Source: a virus. From it: a stretch of DNA of 27,048 bases. Positions 2,453-12,390 of the stretch are shown here, piece by piece. Each line of letters starts with the position of its first letter. Positions within the stretch are counted from its first letter, which is position 1. Below the pieces are notes generated by a model. That model was not told the DNA's origin. It did not search any database and worked only from the letters and a program-made list of their open reading frames with translations. The translations under genes and the position numbers were made by a program. The DNA is taken from positions 1 to 27,048 of IMG/VR virus record IMGVR_UViG_3300018079_000034; one strand, 5' to 3'.

Positions 2453-3373
2453 ATGAGTCCAAAAGCAAGTGAGATGATTATTGATAGCCAAGCTAGTATT
2501 CTACTTAAAGGTCCATTTGGATTTGGCAAGACACTCGCTGCAGCAAGCTTCGCTCTTGAAGGACCGATACACATATCATACTGGGATAAGAAGAAACCAG
2601 TAGAACTTGAACATTTCTTCAGACGTATTATTAAGAGACCTGATTTACTAAATAGAATAGAATATGATGTATATAATTCTCATAATGCAAATGAGTATTT
2701 GAATAAACTAATAGGGTTTATTAAAGATTGTAGATATTTTGCTATAGTTAATGATTCAGTAACTAACATGACATCAGCCGCTGTTAATTGGAGCTTAGGC
2801 TTTAGAGACAATAAGAAAGCTAAAGATAAAGATAAGTTAATACCAGATTTTGATGAGTACAAGGTTGAAACTTCTCTTGTTACGCAAGCATTAGATATTT
2901 GTAAGGCTCTACCAGTCCATGTTCTCTGGACATGCCATCCTGTTCCATCAATCAAGATTGAAGGCTCTGGAAGTAATATGAAAATTATTAAAACTAATCC
3001 TATTGTCACCTATGGTAGTAAGGTGGCAGGGATTGTTCCAGGTAACTTTAGTGAGATATATCATTTCTCACGTCGTTCTAATTGGGACGCAACCTCTGGA
3101 AAACCATCTATTCAATATATAGTATCTACTCAGGGAGTTGCAGAAGATGATTTTGCCAAGAGTAATTTAGGTTTAACTGGAGATATGGATATTACTAATA
3201 GACTATTCTATGAAGTTTGGAAAGAACAAGTTCAAAAGCTAAAGGAGGTGAATAATGCCGACAGGTTAATAGCAGAAGAAACACCAATCAATCCATTTGC
3301 AAATCAAACTAATCAATCAACTAATCAACCAACCAACAAAACCTGGAATCCAGAAAAAGGAAACTACGAATGA
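2453..3373 (+). CDS. RecA-fold ATPase, Sak4-like (AAA_24) recombination protein
   Basis: Residues 20-27 (GPFGFGKT) form a perfect Walker A P-loop close to the N terminus. A hydrophobic strand ending in Asp (FAIVND, around residue 100) is the Walker B. The short N-terminal lead and overall size of 306 residues match the Sak4-like/AAA_24 group of phage ATPases. Sak4 proteins are RecA-related and promote single-strand annealing or exchange, usually next to a single-strand-binding protein, as here (overlap ATGA at 3370). The C terminus is a low-complexity Asn/Gln/Thr tail (residues about 283-298, near-tandem NQT/NQS units), probably disordered. Alternatives are a packaging or helicase-accessory ATPase; I consider these less likely given the neighbours. 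Confidence 0.82.
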   Translation: MSPKASEMIIDSQASILLKGPFGFGKTLAAASFALEGPIHISYWDKKKPVELEHFFRRIIKRPDLLNRIEYDVYNSHNANEYLNKLIGFIKDCRYFAIVNDSVTNMTSAAVNWSLGFRDNKKAKDKDKLIPDFDEYKVETSLVTQALDICKALPVHVLWTCHPVPSIKIEGSGSNMKIIKTNPIVTYGSKVAGIVPGNFSEIYHFSRRSNWDATSGKPSIQYIVSTQGVAEDDFAKSNLGLTGDMDITNRLFYEVWKEQVQKLKEVNNADRLIAEETPINPFANQTNQSTNQPTNKTWNPEKGNYE

Positions 3374-4788: not shown

Positions 4789-4943
4789 TGGAATTTGATG
4801 ATATAGTAGATGACCCATATCGTAAATGTGAAATTTGTGATATCAGATATCATGAGGAGTTTGGAAGGACTTGTGCTGAATGTGATATTTGGATTTGTAA
4901 TAACTGTTGGCCTGAGCATATTGCAGATGAAAGACATCCTTAA
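4785..4943 (+). CDS. Zinc-binding microprotein (two-site finger), 52 aa
   Basis: ATG 4785 (or 4788) sits behind a strong GGGGAGG (4771-4777). The product begins with about 13 acidic residues and then has CEIC...H...C-AEC-x5-CNNC...H, seven cysteines and two histidines spaced like a RING- or B-box-type cross-brace. No enzymatic partner is visible. It overlaps the preceding stop by ATGA and the next start by TAATG, and both spacing and Shine-Dalgarno support a real gene. Confidence 0.72.
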   Translation: MMEFDDIVDDPYRKCEICDIRYHEEFGRTCAECDIWICNNCWPEHIADERHP

Positions 4944-5104
4944 TGCCTAGCCATCCTGATAGAGTCAGAAAGAATTACATAAAAGAATCTATAAAATATT
5001 ATCCATGTGAAAGGTATACAGAACACGTCATTATAGATGGCAAATGTTTTATGTGTGAGAGAACAGAAAAAGAAATTAAAGAGATAAAAAAGACTGATGC
5101 CTAG
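4943..5104 (+). CDS. Zinc-ribbon-like microprotein, 53 aa
   Basis: ATG 4943 is joined to the previous gene by TAATG and the stop TAG 5102-5104 lies inside the start of the polymerase gene (overlap ATGCCTAG, eight bases). The protein has one cysteine near residue 22 and a CFMC knuckle near residue 37, in a very basic background with a lysine/glutamate helix at the end. Function is unknown. Genomic placement suggests it is translated just ahead of the polymerase. Confidence 0.65.
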   Translation: MPSHPDRVRKNYIKESIKYYPCERYTEHVIIDGKCFMCERTEKEIKEIKKTDA

Positions 5105-7565
5105 ATATGTAAATGGAGTCGGACCACTAGAGCCAGATTTGATGGCTATAGGTGAAGCTCCTGGTAAACAAGAGGATGACACAGGTATTCCATTCCATCC
5201 AGATGCACCATCAGGAAGAATAATAACTGATTGTTTAACAAAGGCTGGAGCTAGACGTTCTGAAGTTTATATCACAAATGTATCTAAATATCAGCCACCA
5301 TTCAATGATTTCAAGAAGTTATTTCTTATTGACATAGACATTAATGAGCAAATAAAGAATCTTTGGGATGATGAGATATTCAAATTACGTCCTAAATGTA
5401 TTCTAGCTATTGGAGATGAGGCTCTACAAGCTACTACTGGATATTCCGGAATTCTAAATTATCGTGGTAGTATATTATTAGCAAAGGATGGAGTTACAAA
5501 GGTAGTTCCTACAATACATCCAGCCGCTTTGTTCAATCGAGGTGATAAAGGTGGACTTGAATACACATATCTCAAACTTATTGAAGCAGATATTGCAAGA
5601 GCTGTTGAAGAATCCAGAACAAGGAAGCTTAACTTACCAGATAGACAACTTGATGTTTGTCACAGTTCATTGGACTTGTATAGATTCTTTGACAAATATA
5701 AACAGCTTGATAAAGCAGTTACAGACATTGAATCAATTAACTGTGTTCCTGTGTGCATCGGTTTTGCATTCAATAAACAACACGCCATTTCGGTGCCTTT
5801 ACTTAACTCCATTGGTAAGCATAGACTTACTGATATGGGAGATAACGAGCTTGATGAATGCTGGAGACTCATTGATACACAATTACGAAGACTTAAACTA
5901 GTTGGACAAAATCTAAAATATGATGAATTTAAGTTAAATTTAATTGGATTTGAATTACCAAATGTCTATAGTGATACTCTAATTAAAACAAGAGTTATAT
6001 TTCCAGAATTACCAATTAAACAATTACATGTTCAAAGTAGTCTCTGGACAAGAGAGCCGTTTTACAAGGATGAAGGTAAAGAATTCAAGCTGGGTAAGCA
6101 AAACATTGAACAGTTCTTTAAGTATAATAGTAGGGATTGTGCAGTCACCTATGAAATAGATGAGGTTCAGGAACAAGACTTAATTGATTTAAGTGAAGCT
6201 CATCATGTTCCATTGGTAGATTATTATTATAATTATATGATGAAGAAACATAAGTTTTATTTGAAGATGGAAAATAATGGCTTTGCTGTTAATGTTGCAA
6301 GGCAGAAAGAACTACGAAAAAGATACACAGAGATGGCATTAGTTGTTCATCAGAGAATTAGCGACGCAGTGGGTCACGAAGTAAATGTCAATAGTTATCC
6401 ACAGATGTTTGAGTTATTATATAACGAGATGAAATTTAAGTATATGAAGCGTAATCCAACGTCAGAGGATACGATTGTAGCATTACTGGGGAATCATGCC
6501 AAAACAAAAGAAAAGAAAGCCATCCTCACTGACTTACTTGAAGAGAGAAGAATCAGAACTCAAAAATCTAGATATATCAATTTCAATCCAGATTACGATG
6601 GAAGATGCAAAACGTCTTTCAATATTTCAGCAACAGAGACTTGTAGGAGTTCTACGTCGATTCTCAAAAAGCCAGTTAGGCCAAAGAAAATCGGACTTGC
6701 GTTTCATACAATATCTAAGCATGGGAGACTGGCAAAAGACATACGTAGCATGTTTATTCCAGATAAAGGGACTGTCTTCCTTGCAGCAGATTCTAGCCAA
6801 GCTGAACCAAGAATAGTAGCTGTGCTATGTGAGGACTGGGAGCTTCTAAAAGCATTTGATGATAAAATAGATATCCATAGAAGAATGGCTGGTTTTATAT
6901 TTGGATATACTAAAAGTTTAGAATTGGGAGTCAATCCAATATTAGTAGTTGATATCTTAGAGAAAGATGGACCAGAAAGGTTTTGTGGCAAAAAGACACG
7001 TAATGCAGGCAATTATAACATGGGTAAGAATAGGTTTATGGTTGAGTTTAATACTGACGCTCAAAAGTTTGATATTGCTATGTCTATTAGTGAGTGGCGC
7101 GCTGGACAGATGCTTGACTTATTTCATACGGCATCACCTAGAATCAGAGGCAAATTTCATCAGGATATTATTGATTGTCTTCAAAGCACACGAACAATTA
7201 TCGACCCATATGGGGGAGTTAGAATTTTCAATGGGAGAATGGATGATGAATTATATAAAGAGGGATTTGCCAATATTCCGCAGAGGACTGTTGCACATTT
7301 AGTTCAGGGAGCCGCTCTCAAGATAGATGATGAATTAAATGGTGATAGTGCTTTCTTGTGGCTCAGTGAAGACCACGACTCATTAAAAATGCAAGTCCCA
7401 GCCGCTAACTGGGAGCCATATGCTAAACTAATGAAGAAGCATTTTCTTACTCCTATTGACTTTTCAACTTACTGTAGTTTGAAGAGAAACTATACATTAG
7501 TAATTCCATGTGATATTGAGATGAGTGATACTAATTACGCAGAAATGAGAAAGGTAAAAATATAA
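5097..7565 (+). CDS. Family A DNA polymerase with UDG-like N-terminal domain
   Basis: This 822-residue protein joins three modules. Residues 1-165 match the uracil-DNA glycosylase family 4 fold: GEAPGKQEDDTGIPF (19-33), TNVSKYQPP (60-68) and HPAA (141-144). Residues 205-350 are a DEDDy 3'-5' exonuclease: D210/E212, N272/D276 and Y343/D347. Residues 390-822 are a DNA polymerase I-type palm and fingers: motif A aspartate D565 in ADSSQAEPR, motif B with K632/K633 and Y640, motif C H760-D761-S762. The phage SPO1 polymerase is known to carry the same type of N-terminal domain. Here the Fe-S cysteines of family 4 are absent: no CxxC at the start, and Tyr65 replaces the cysteine of KCRPP. Motif C has Ser where Glu is usual, leaving both essential aspartates. 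It is surely the replicative polymerase; glycosylase activity is uncertain. Confidence 0.95.
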   Translation: MPRYVNGVGPLEPDLMAIGEAPGKQEDDTGIPFHPDAPSGRIITDCLTKAGARRSEVYITNVSKYQPPFNDFKKLFLIDIDINEQIKNLWDDEIFKLRPKCILAIGDEALQATTGYSGILNYRGSILLAKDGVTKVVPTIHPAALFNRGDKGGLEYTYLKLIEADIARAVEESRTRKLNLPDRQLDVCHSSLDLYRFFDKYKQLDKAVTDIESINCVPVCIGFAFNKQHAISVPLLNSIGKHRLTDMGDNELDECWRLIDTQLRRLKLVGQNLKYDEFKLNLIGFELPNVYSDTLIKTRVIFPELPIKQLHVQSSLWTREPFYKDEGKEFKLGKQNIEQFFKYNSRDCAVTYEIDEVQEQDLIDLSEAHHVPLVDYYYNYMMKKHKFYLKMENNGFAVNVARQKELRKRYTEMALVVHQRISDAVGHEVNVNSYPQMFELLYNEMKFKYMKRNPTSEDTIVALLGNHAKTKEKKAILTDLLEERRIRTQKSRYINFNPDYDGRCKTSFNISATETCRSSTSILKKPVRPKKIGLAFHTISKHGRLAKDIRSMFIPDKGTVFLAADSSQAEPRIVAVLCEDWELLKAFDDKIDIHRRMAGFIFGYTKSLELGVNPILVVDILEKDGPERFCGKKTRNAGNYNMGKNRFMVEFNTDAQKFDIAMSISEWRAGQMLDLFHTASPRIRGKFHQDIIDCLQSTRTIIDPYGGVRIFNGRMDDELYKEGFANIPQRTVAHLVQGAALKIDDELNGDSAFLWLSEDHDSLKMQVPAANWEPYAKLMKKHFLTPIDFSTYCSLKRNYTLVIPCDIEMSDTNYAEMRKVKI

Positions 7566-8838: not shown

Positions 8839-9047
8839 GTAAATTCAGAGTAGGTGATAGAGTAATTAGAAGAGGATTAACAAAAGAAGAACCAATTAGA
8901 CATGGAGTAATTACACAAGTTAACAATTCATGGAAAGATTATAAAAATCAAACTACAATTCTTTATGCAGTTATATGGGATGATACTAAAATTGAGGAAT
9001 CTGGATATATGGAAATAGCTAATGGTTTAGACTTTGAGACAACTTAA
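8835..9047 (+). CDS. Small beta-barrel (SH3/KOW-like) protein, 70 aa
   Basis: It begins FRVGDRVIRRG, followed by strands RHGVITQV and YAVIWDD, the layout of a small SH3-like or KOW-like barrel. Such domains are often inserted beside phage replication genes and bind nucleic acid or protein. The gene overlaps the helicase-like gene by 14 bases. The fold suggestion is from pattern only. Confidence 0.68.
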   Translation: MSKFRVGDRVIRRGLTKEEPIRHGVITQVNNSWKDYKNQTTILYAVIWDDTKIEESGYMEIANGLDFETT

Positions 9048-10272
9048 TTGGGTAGACTCACTTGTTGCTGAATGTCTTCATGTCGAAACGCCCGCAAGTT
9101 GGCTTTGGTGGTCTTTCATATCTTGCATTTCAGCGGCTGCTGGAAACAATTACAGCCTGACCACATTAAAAGGTGACCTAATATATAAGCCTAATTTATA
9201 CATAATGCTTTTAGGAGAGAGCGGTTTAGGTAAAGGTTTTCCTATAAATAGGGCTAAGCTATTAGTGTCTAGAGCTAATGTCACTAGAGTAGTGGCTGGA
9301 CGTAGTAGTATTCAAGCTATTGTTCAAGAATTATCTCGAACCAGAACAGTTGAAGGAAAAGCAACAATCACAGATAGTAGAGGATTCATAATCAATGGTG
9401 AATTATCAACTGCAATTATTCAAGACCCAGATTCTCTTACGATTCTCACTGACCTATACGATGGACATTACAATCCTGAGTGGACTAATTTACTTAAAGG
9501 TGATGGAGCTGAAAAGCTCAAAAATCCTTATATTACTGCTTTGTTTGGTAGTAGTCCGGCTCATTTCTACGATAGTATACCACAAGCTAATATCGAAGGT
9601 GGGTATATTGGTCGTAATCTCATTGTATATGAAGAGAAAAGAAGTAAAGACGTAGATTTATTAGACAATGAAAGTAAAGATGACAACAAATTTGATGAAT
9701 ATTTAGTCCCAAAGTATGTTCCACATCTTGAGAAGGTTGCGAGCCTTAAAGGACGAATTACTCCAAGTGATGATGCAAAACAGTTATTCAATACATGGCG
9801 CCGTAAATGGAGAAATTCACAAACATATGATAAGACAGGATTCCTGAACAGAGTTCCTGATCATGTATTAAAAGTAGCTATGTGCTTGACATTAGCTAAT
9901 TATGAATTCACTGGTGAAATCAGTGAGATTGATATTGAAGAATCAATTCAACGTGTTACACAGTTAGTCTATTCTAATAAGAGAACGACTGAAGGTAGAG
10001 GCCCAGATCCATTAGCCGCTGCGACTAAGAACGTATTAGATTACTTGTTAGCGGCTCCTGACCAAGAATTAGCTAGAAGACAACTTCTTTGGAAGGGTTA
10101 TGGAATGTTCACTAGTTTTACGTTAGATCAGATAATTGACAATCTAATGGAAATGGGATGGATACGTAGGGTGAAAGTTGGAGTTGGAAGTAACATGGAT
10201 TGGTCCATTAAACTTTCGGGAGAGCCATTAGACTCATACAAGAAATATATGGCTGGTAAGGAGAAGAAATGA
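9034..10272 (+). CDS. DUF3987-like helicase/primase-associated ATPase
   Basis: The 412-residue protein has a P-loop at 61-68 (GESGLGKG) and an acidic second motif in FIINGEL (118-124), with the order and surroundings of the DUF3987 group found in phage and plasmid replication modules. Downstream are TALFGSSPAHF (a sensor-like segment) and an arginine-rich helix. Residues about 330-400 form a winged-helix-like end (QIIDNLMEMGWIRRVKVG). The P-loop ends in Gly rather than Ser/Thr, which is uncommon. The start is TTG 9034, inside the previous gene; no ATG is available before the P-loop. Probably the replicative helicase or a primase-helicase part. No separate primase is seen in the window. Confidence 0.75.
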   Translation: MRQLNWVDSLVAECLHVETPASWLWWSFISCISAAAGNNYSLTTLKGDLIYKPNLYIMLLGESGLGKGFPINRAKLLVSRANVTRVVAGRSSIQAIVQELSRTRTVEGKATITDSRGFIINGELSTAIIQDPDSLTILTDLYDGHYNPEWTNLLKGDGAEKLKNPYITALFGSSPAHFYDSIPQANIEGGYIGRNLIVYEEKRSKDVDLLDNESKDDNKFDEYLVPKYVPHLEKVASLKGRITPSDDAKQLFNTWRRKWRNSQTYDKTGFLNRVPDHVLKVAMCLTLANYEFTGEISEIDIEESIQRVTQLVYSNKRTTEGRGPDPLAAATKNVLDYLLAAPDQELARRQLLWKGYGMFTSFTLDQIIDNLMEMGWIRRVKVGVGSNMDWSIKLSGEPLDSYKKYMAGKEKK

Positions 10273-11000: not shown

Positions 11001-11504
11001 ATGGAACATGAACTATTTGAAGTTTCAGAAGCAAGAATTAAATTTGGTGACTCTAGCTGGGAGGGATTTAAGAAGATGCCATATGACTATTTAGCGGCTC
11101 TTCGTGAGTTTCATGAGAAATATGGTCACTATATTAGTAATAGGCCATTTAATGGTGATAAATATCCTTCATTTCCAACTGACGTAGTCAGATTAAGAGA
11201 GAAATTAATAACAGAAGAAACTAAGGAATTCCATGATCGGTCATATGGGGTGTGTGGCACACTTGATAGTATCCCAGTCGACATTATAGAAATAGCCGAT
11301 GCTATAGCCGACTTACTATATGTAGTCTTTGGCGCAGCATTAACATATGGGATACCAATTGAAGAAGTCTTCAAAGAAGTTCACCGTTCTAATATGACAA
11401 AGTCAATGATAAAAGATGAAAAATCAATCAAAGGTAAAACAATTAAAGGACCAAACTTTGAGCCACCAAAGATTAGAGAGATTCTTGAGAGGTATATGAA
11501 ATGA
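11001..11504 (+). CDS. MazG/PRA-PH-like nucleotide pyrophosphohydrolase
   Basis: The 167-residue product has the all-alpha NTP-pyrophosphatase signature: EETKEF (around residues 72-77) and EIADAIADLLYVVFG (around 99-113), giving the EExxE...ExxD metal-binding pattern. It also shows the family features EVHRSNMTK and KGPNFEPP. Members hydrolyse nucleoside triphosphates to monophosphate and pyrophosphate, or act on phosphoribosyl-ATP. Phages use them to clear modified or unwanted nucleotides or to alter alarmone levels. An AGGTGA stands seven bases before ATG. The first 50 residues are an N-terminal helical lead. Family sure, substrate unknown. Confidence 0.88.
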   Translation: MEHELFEVSEARIKFGDSSWEGFKKMPYDYLAALREFHEKYGHYISNRPFNGDKYPSFPTDVVRLREKLITEETKEFHDRSYGVCGTLDSIPVDIIEIADAIADLLYVVFGAALTYGIPIEEVFKEVHRSNMTKSMIKDEKSIKGKTIKGPNFEPPKIREILERYMK

Positions 11505-12036: not shown

Positions 12037-12390
12037 ATGTCAATCAAACAACTACCAGAAATACTTAAAAAGATACAAGAAATACATGAAAGGAAGAATA
12101 AAGACTATGCACAAGCTGACGATCCATTTAGTAATTTTAAGCGTGCTAGTATTATTGCTTCTTGGTTTGATGACCCTATTGACAAAGTTTTTGCGACCCT
12201 TACTGGAATTAAGCTTGCTCGTTTGGCAGAGCTTCTAAATGGTAAAACTCCATTACATGAATCTATTGATGATTCATTCTTAGATAAGAACACCTATGGA
12301 GTTATTTGGCAGGCTTGGAACTTGGCTAAGAATGAAGATGGCACAAAAAAAGAAGATTTACTGCAGAGTTCAAATATTCCGTATAAGTGA
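12037..12390 (+). CDS. DUF1599/Nmad1-like nucleotide-modification-associated protein
   Basis: GAGGAAA lies just before ATG 12037. The 117 residues show KNKDYA, then DPFSNFKR, TGIKLARLAEL and ESIDDSFLDKNTYGVI. This spaced KNxDY...F-x-NF...K-x-x-R...ES-x-x-D-x3-D order matches the DUF1599 group (nucleotide modification associated domain 1), an all-alpha family proposed from phage gene neighbourhoods to take part in base modification. Enzymatic activity is not established. It forms a likely nucleotide-metabolism set with the MazG-like gene at 11001. Confidence 0.65.
   Translation: MSIKQLPEILKKIQEIHERKNKDYAQADDPFSNFKRASIIASWFDDPIDKVFATLTGIKLARLAELLNGKTPLHESIDDSFLDKNTYGVIWQAWNLAKNEDGTKKEDLLQSSNIPYK

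Follow-up and report, generated by a model that had tools for sequence, protein, structure and literature searches.

What does a uracil-DNA glycosylase (UDG) domain do at the head of a phage DNA polymerase once the cysteines for its Fe-S cluster are gone? The locus that raises this question lies in IMG/VR record IMGVR_UViG_3300018079_000034, a viral fragment of 27,048 nt (the window). Its gene at 5097-7565 belongs to a tailed phage and encodes the family-A polymerase that replicates the phage DNA; a sequence-only reading had described the product as a UDG-exonuclease-Pol I fusion in the manner of SPO1, with a first domain that might read uracil or a modified base.

Architecture of the fusion protein

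The polymerase gene sits inside a rightward replication cluster, in which Pfam and ORF profile scans of the window also matched a PD-(D/E)XK nuclease (494-1399), a Sak4-like protein (2453-3373), a DUF3987 primase/helicase-like protein (9034-10272) and a MazG-like pyrophosphohydrolase (11001-11504). A host search in genome_contigs gave no relative. A further protein (12037-12390) carries a KNKDYAQADDPFSNFKRA motif, corresponds to phrog_1485 and has no Pfam match; it is presumably reminiscent of a nucleotide-modification-associated family.

The fusion protein (plus strand, 5097..7565; ORF call and Pfam) starts with ATG and is 822 aa long. Its UDG-fold domain (residues 1-146, 5097..5534; PF03167, AlphaFold2 and Foldseek) is devoid of Fe-S cysteines and contains E20, F33, N61 and H141. 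It is followed on the same strand by a 3'-5' exonuclease domain (about residues 185-370, 5649..6206), in which the DEDDy set D210, E212, D276, Y343 and D347 is complete, and by a family-A polymerase domain (residues 371-822, 6207..7562; Pfam and motifs A, B and C). The UDG superfamily profile PF03167 matches residues 7-149 with E 1.3e-18 and a score of 67.9 bits, where 24.3 is the cut-off, and DNA_pol_A, PF00476, matches residues 404-604 (E 2.9e-28), ending just ahead of motif B. Motif A reads DSSQAEPR (565-572), motif B R628-K632-N636-Y640 and motif C H760-D761-S762. Profiles, exonuclease residues and polymerase motifs thus bear out the proposed fusion and identify a family-A polymerase with a DEDDy exonuclease, whose motif B carries Asn for Phe762. 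The proposed likeness to SPO1 also holds for the arrangement, as SPO1 gp31 has the same domain order. The HDS of motif C, singled out earlier as an oddity, is no anomaly: HDS, HDA, HDQ and HDD are the rule among UDG-Pol fusions.

Two relatives carry inserted sequence at this gene. In L027 (ORF at 4968), an intein of ~335 residues (about residues 650-987), with LAGLIDADG-like motifs and apparently Ala first and HN last, splits polymerase motif B between GKK and TRHAGNY. In L004 (5001-5594), the polymerase gene has its initial 21 codons twice, and ~530 bases of unrelated content lie between the two copies, which resembles a mobile insertion at the gene start.

A predicted UDG fold of the family-4 type

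The ancestor of the N-terminal domain is a uracil-DNA glycosylase of family 4. Direct reading gives the motifs GEAPG (19-23), E26-D27, PF (32-33), YITN (58-61), KYQPP (64-68) and HPAA (141-144), so that GE(A/G)PG, HPA and the catalytic Glu, Asn and His of the family are all in place. The AlphaFold2 model of residues 1-173 has a pLDDT of 92.8 and a pTM of 0.89; the alignment behind it included one full-length row (L009), and the modelled residues are those of the first row only. Among solved structures, Foldseek matched it best to UdgX (E 2e-15) and family-4 UDGs (E about 1e-15), with TM about 0.8, and more weakly to the Thermus UDG 2d3y and to 9qhs_A, 'phiLo family-A DNA polymerase with modified template' (E 5e-7). 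When predicted viral proteins were compared, an uncultured-phage DNA polymerase I came first, followed by many other DNA polymerases. Structure prediction therefore returned the UDG fold that had been read into residues 1-165. The protein nevertheless scores 74.1 bits with NCBIfam TIGR00758 (family-4 UDG), below the curated cut-off of 125.3, and its UDG domain does not have the four cysteines that ligate the [4Fe-4S] cluster of this family. In each relative searched, the sole UDG-family match was the domain fused to the polymerase.

Loss of the Fe-S cysteines

All four cysteines are gone, extending what had been claimed for the KCRPP cysteine and the CxxC. In the alignment to Thermus 1ui0 and Thermotoga 1vk2, KCRPP has become KYQPP, with Tyr65 (codon 5289..5291, plus strand) in place of the cysteine; the N-terminal CxxC is absent, just 18 residues preceding GEAPG; and the fourth site (about residue 85) is a residue other than Cys in the window and, as aligned, in its relatives. 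Neither Cys65 nor an upstream CxxC occurs in any of the 62 sequences of the window family. Instead, an aromatic residue, Tyr or Phe, occupies position 65 in nearly the whole window clade, and the Mel-JY34 relatives likewise have no Cys65. We considered split ligands from the ORF directly upstream (4943-5104), which has a CxxC; as the gene at this place is not conserved in relatives, that ORF supplies no cluster. Short genes starting with MPSHPDR or MPSHQER and diverging in their tails lie directly upstream of the polymerase here and in L002, L012, L024, L032 and L033; some of these small proteins have Zn-knuckle-like cysteines, and their match to phrog_1461 is weak.

The cysteine set is kept in the fusions of ctfzr933, L136, ctLwi270, vir526, YenP744, Serbin, ctSAF950, MaInes and phiLo, and is missing in SPO1 gp31 and the SP-15 polymerase. 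In a quick tree of exonuclease and polymerase columns only, which leaves out SPO1 and SP-15 and has long branches for Desulfofustis, MaInes and ctSAF950, 36 of the 48 rows, all cysteine-less, are set apart from the others by a branch whose support is 95. The alignment proposed earlier as a check for lineage-wide loss thus came out in its favour, while the contrast with SPO1 implied at the time does not stand, since SPO1 gp31 itself is without the cysteines. UDG-polymerase fusions have been known at the sequence level since SPO1, and the label 'Phage SPO1 DNA polymerase-related protein' persists in the annotation of family-4 UDGs; the window's fusion represents a variant of this known fusion with lineage-wide cluster loss. 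As judged from these sequences, the [4Fe-4S] cluster was likely lost once, early in the polymerase lineage; with a quick tree and some long branches, a single loss is likely but unproven.

Conservation and decay of the pocket

In the window clade (n = 47, window included; 60-81% identity), the pocket is near-invariant: Glu20 is present in 46 of 47 sequences, and Asn61 and His141 in all. The sister clade (n = 13; 38-41% identity) retains the domain, with Asn61 replaced by Tyr in 11/13 and His141 by Ser in 7/13. Motif A and the His are also gone in L137, which is closely related to the cysteine-bearing ctfzr933, and Gordonia and Mycobacterium phages have the UDG domain reduced to a remnant. With pocket residues lost both in the sister clade and in L137, the domain has decayed repeatedly across the fusions, yet it is kept in the window's clade. 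There, substitution patterns point to purifying selection on the UDG domain: the median pN/pS is 0.32 for residues 1-146, 0.23 for the exonuclease and 0.24 for the polymerase, with synonymous sites near saturation, and mean identity is 67% in the UDG domain versus 72% in the polymerase.

Position 762 of the polymerase active site

The spacing R628-xxx-K632-xxx-N636-xxx-Y640 is that of motif B in E. coli Pol I, with its residues R754, K758, F762 and Y766; spacing (RxxxKxxxXxxxY) and alignment thus make Asn636 (7002..7004, plus strand) the equivalent of Phe762. Position 762 is His or Asn in all 36 cysteine-less tree rows and Phe or Tyr in all cysteine-bearing and remnant rows; L033, a further relative apart from the tree set, has Tyr. 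The residue is mostly His across the lineage, and Asn in the window (motif B, 6978-7016). For phage PolA, only Tyr, Phe and Leu are mentioned at this position (PMC13228545; PMC6302109), so His/Asn762 is a residue type unmentioned in these surveys, at a position used for classifying phage polymerases. As His/Asn762 and cysteine loss lie on the same tree branch, their co-occurrence is no evidence for functional coupling. Genes of the thymidylate-synthase (TS) family occur in 7/7 checked genomes of the Phe762 clade (with Fe-S domain or remnant) and in 0/19 records of the cysteine-less type.

What the domain may do

At about even chances, we consider the domain a cluster-free uracil-recognition module on the replicative polymerase, with or without excision. 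It would dock the template strand beside the polymerase, its pocket would still recognise uracil, the product of cytosine deamination, and template uracil detected during replication would either act as a signal to stall or steer the polymerase or be excised. Archaeal family-B polymerases stall or steer at template uracil by means of a different fold. For the window clade, recognising uracil is the likeliest role in view of the UDG fold, the near-invariant pocket, the purifying selection, the sole UDG match and the absence of dUTPase: PF00692 was found neither in the window nor in 13 relatives, so no phage gene of this family keeps dUTP low. Against it stand the sister clade, which keeps the domain without the pocket, the remnant in Gordonia and Mycobacterium phages, and the full-length model, whose pTM of 0.60 is too weak for placing the UDG domain against the template. 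Recognition without efficient excision, judged from sequence, is a possible though tentative form of this module.

A comparably tentative explanation is that the fold serves as a scaffold, gripping the single-stranded template or positioning the exonuclease, with the pocket residues having a structural role. The fold has indeed outlived the pocket in the sister clade, in L137 as compared with L136 and L043, in SPO1 and in Listeria phage LP-048; that the window clade hardly varies at Glu20, Asn61 and His141 speaks against it.

The excision half of the uracil-recognition reading, which we list separately, would be an active, cluster-free glycosylase tethered to the polymerase, in which packing around Tyr65 replaces the structural cluster. 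Glycosylase families 1, 2, 3 and 6 function without a cluster, the catalytic and uracil-contacting positions are retained and near-invariant in the window clade, and almost every member has an aromatic residue at the cysteine position. However, the protein misses the TIGR00758 cut-off, the sister clade has lost these residues of the pocket, and excising bases from a strand under replication seems harmful; in the template ahead of the replicative polymerase, it would leave a blocking abasic site. Overall, we regard this alternative as unlikely.

Still less probable is that the domain reads a modified pyrimidine of the phage genome itself, as is imaginable for SPO1 or phiLo. SPO1 DNA contains hydroxymethyluracil, and SP-15 is likewise a modified-DNA phage; both carry fusions, many fusions occur together with TS-family genes, and the phiLo structure is titled 'with modified template'. 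But the TS-family genes track the other polymerase clade. PF00303 (thymidylate synthase/hydroxymethylase) is present in ctfzr933, YenP744, Serbin, MaInes, SPO1, Amok, Shrew and NoShow, and in 0/14 long contigs of the window family and 0/5 cysteine-less phage records (Mel-JY34, ctMlz233, Desulfofustis, VS-ABTNL-3 and Kuura); the 27-kb window itself was covered by ORF scans only. This disfavours the modified-base half of the earlier proposal and an SPO1-type modified-pyrimidine genome, although phiLo and SP-15 also have no PF00303 match, so that a modification pathway lacking this gene family is conceivable. An aminoadenine (Z) genome was rejected as well, since no adenylosuccinate synthase of the purZ family (PF00709) was found; the polymerase scores 41.9 against 500 bits with NF038380 and is not a DpoZ. 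Other functions are just as improbable as a modified-pyrimidine reader.

Comparison with known systems

The window's fusion shares with SPO1 gp31 the UDG-exonuclease-PolA order, the loss of all Fe-S cysteines and the Tyr at the KCRPP cysteine. It differs in the pocket, which is intact in the window clade and degraded in SPO1 (QENPF; Asn80 to Ser and Phe54 to Met, Thermus numbering), and in the genome around it: SPO1 has a dUMP hydroxymethylase gene, the window relatives have none. The polymerase of Thermus phage phiLo is likewise a family-A enzyme headed by a UDG-fold domain, but keeps the CxxC and both other cysteines and is 1175 aa long. PDB 9qhs (2026), which the UDG-domain profile matches at E 1.7e-14, is apparently this polymerase, phiLo_158, going by phage and molecule name. 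With Microcystis phage Mel-JY34 and groundwater phage ctMlz233, the window shares the cysteine-less, His762 polymerase lineage; these two differ from it in that identity is about 27%, their UDG domain contains an insertion and a DNA methyltransferase gene lies nearby.

With the family-4 UDGs 1ui0 and 1vk2, the window domain has the fold and the motifs GE(A/G)PG, ED, the N in TN and HPA in common, while it has no Fe-S cysteines, is part of a polymerase and falls under the NCBI family-4 cut-off. UdgX of Mycobacterium smegmatis, the top fold match, is defined by a KRRIH R-loop and a GEQPG motif (PMC10359453). As the window domain has GEAPG and no R-loop (residues 58-90), covalent DNA capture of the UdgX type is not expected.

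In its broadest form, which we think unlikely, the finding would be a widespread phage polymerase lineage whose cluster-free domain senses uracil and makes the replicative polymerase halt or change course at deaminated cytosines, together with a new His/Asn762 class of Pol I active site. If true, bacterial viruses would have in this sensor a counterpart to the read-ahead pocket with which archaeal family-B polymerases detect uracil. Together, the fusions form a natural series, from the intact Fe-S domain through the cluster-free domain with a pocket and the pocket-less domain to the remnant, through which the contributions of cluster, pocket and fold can be told apart.
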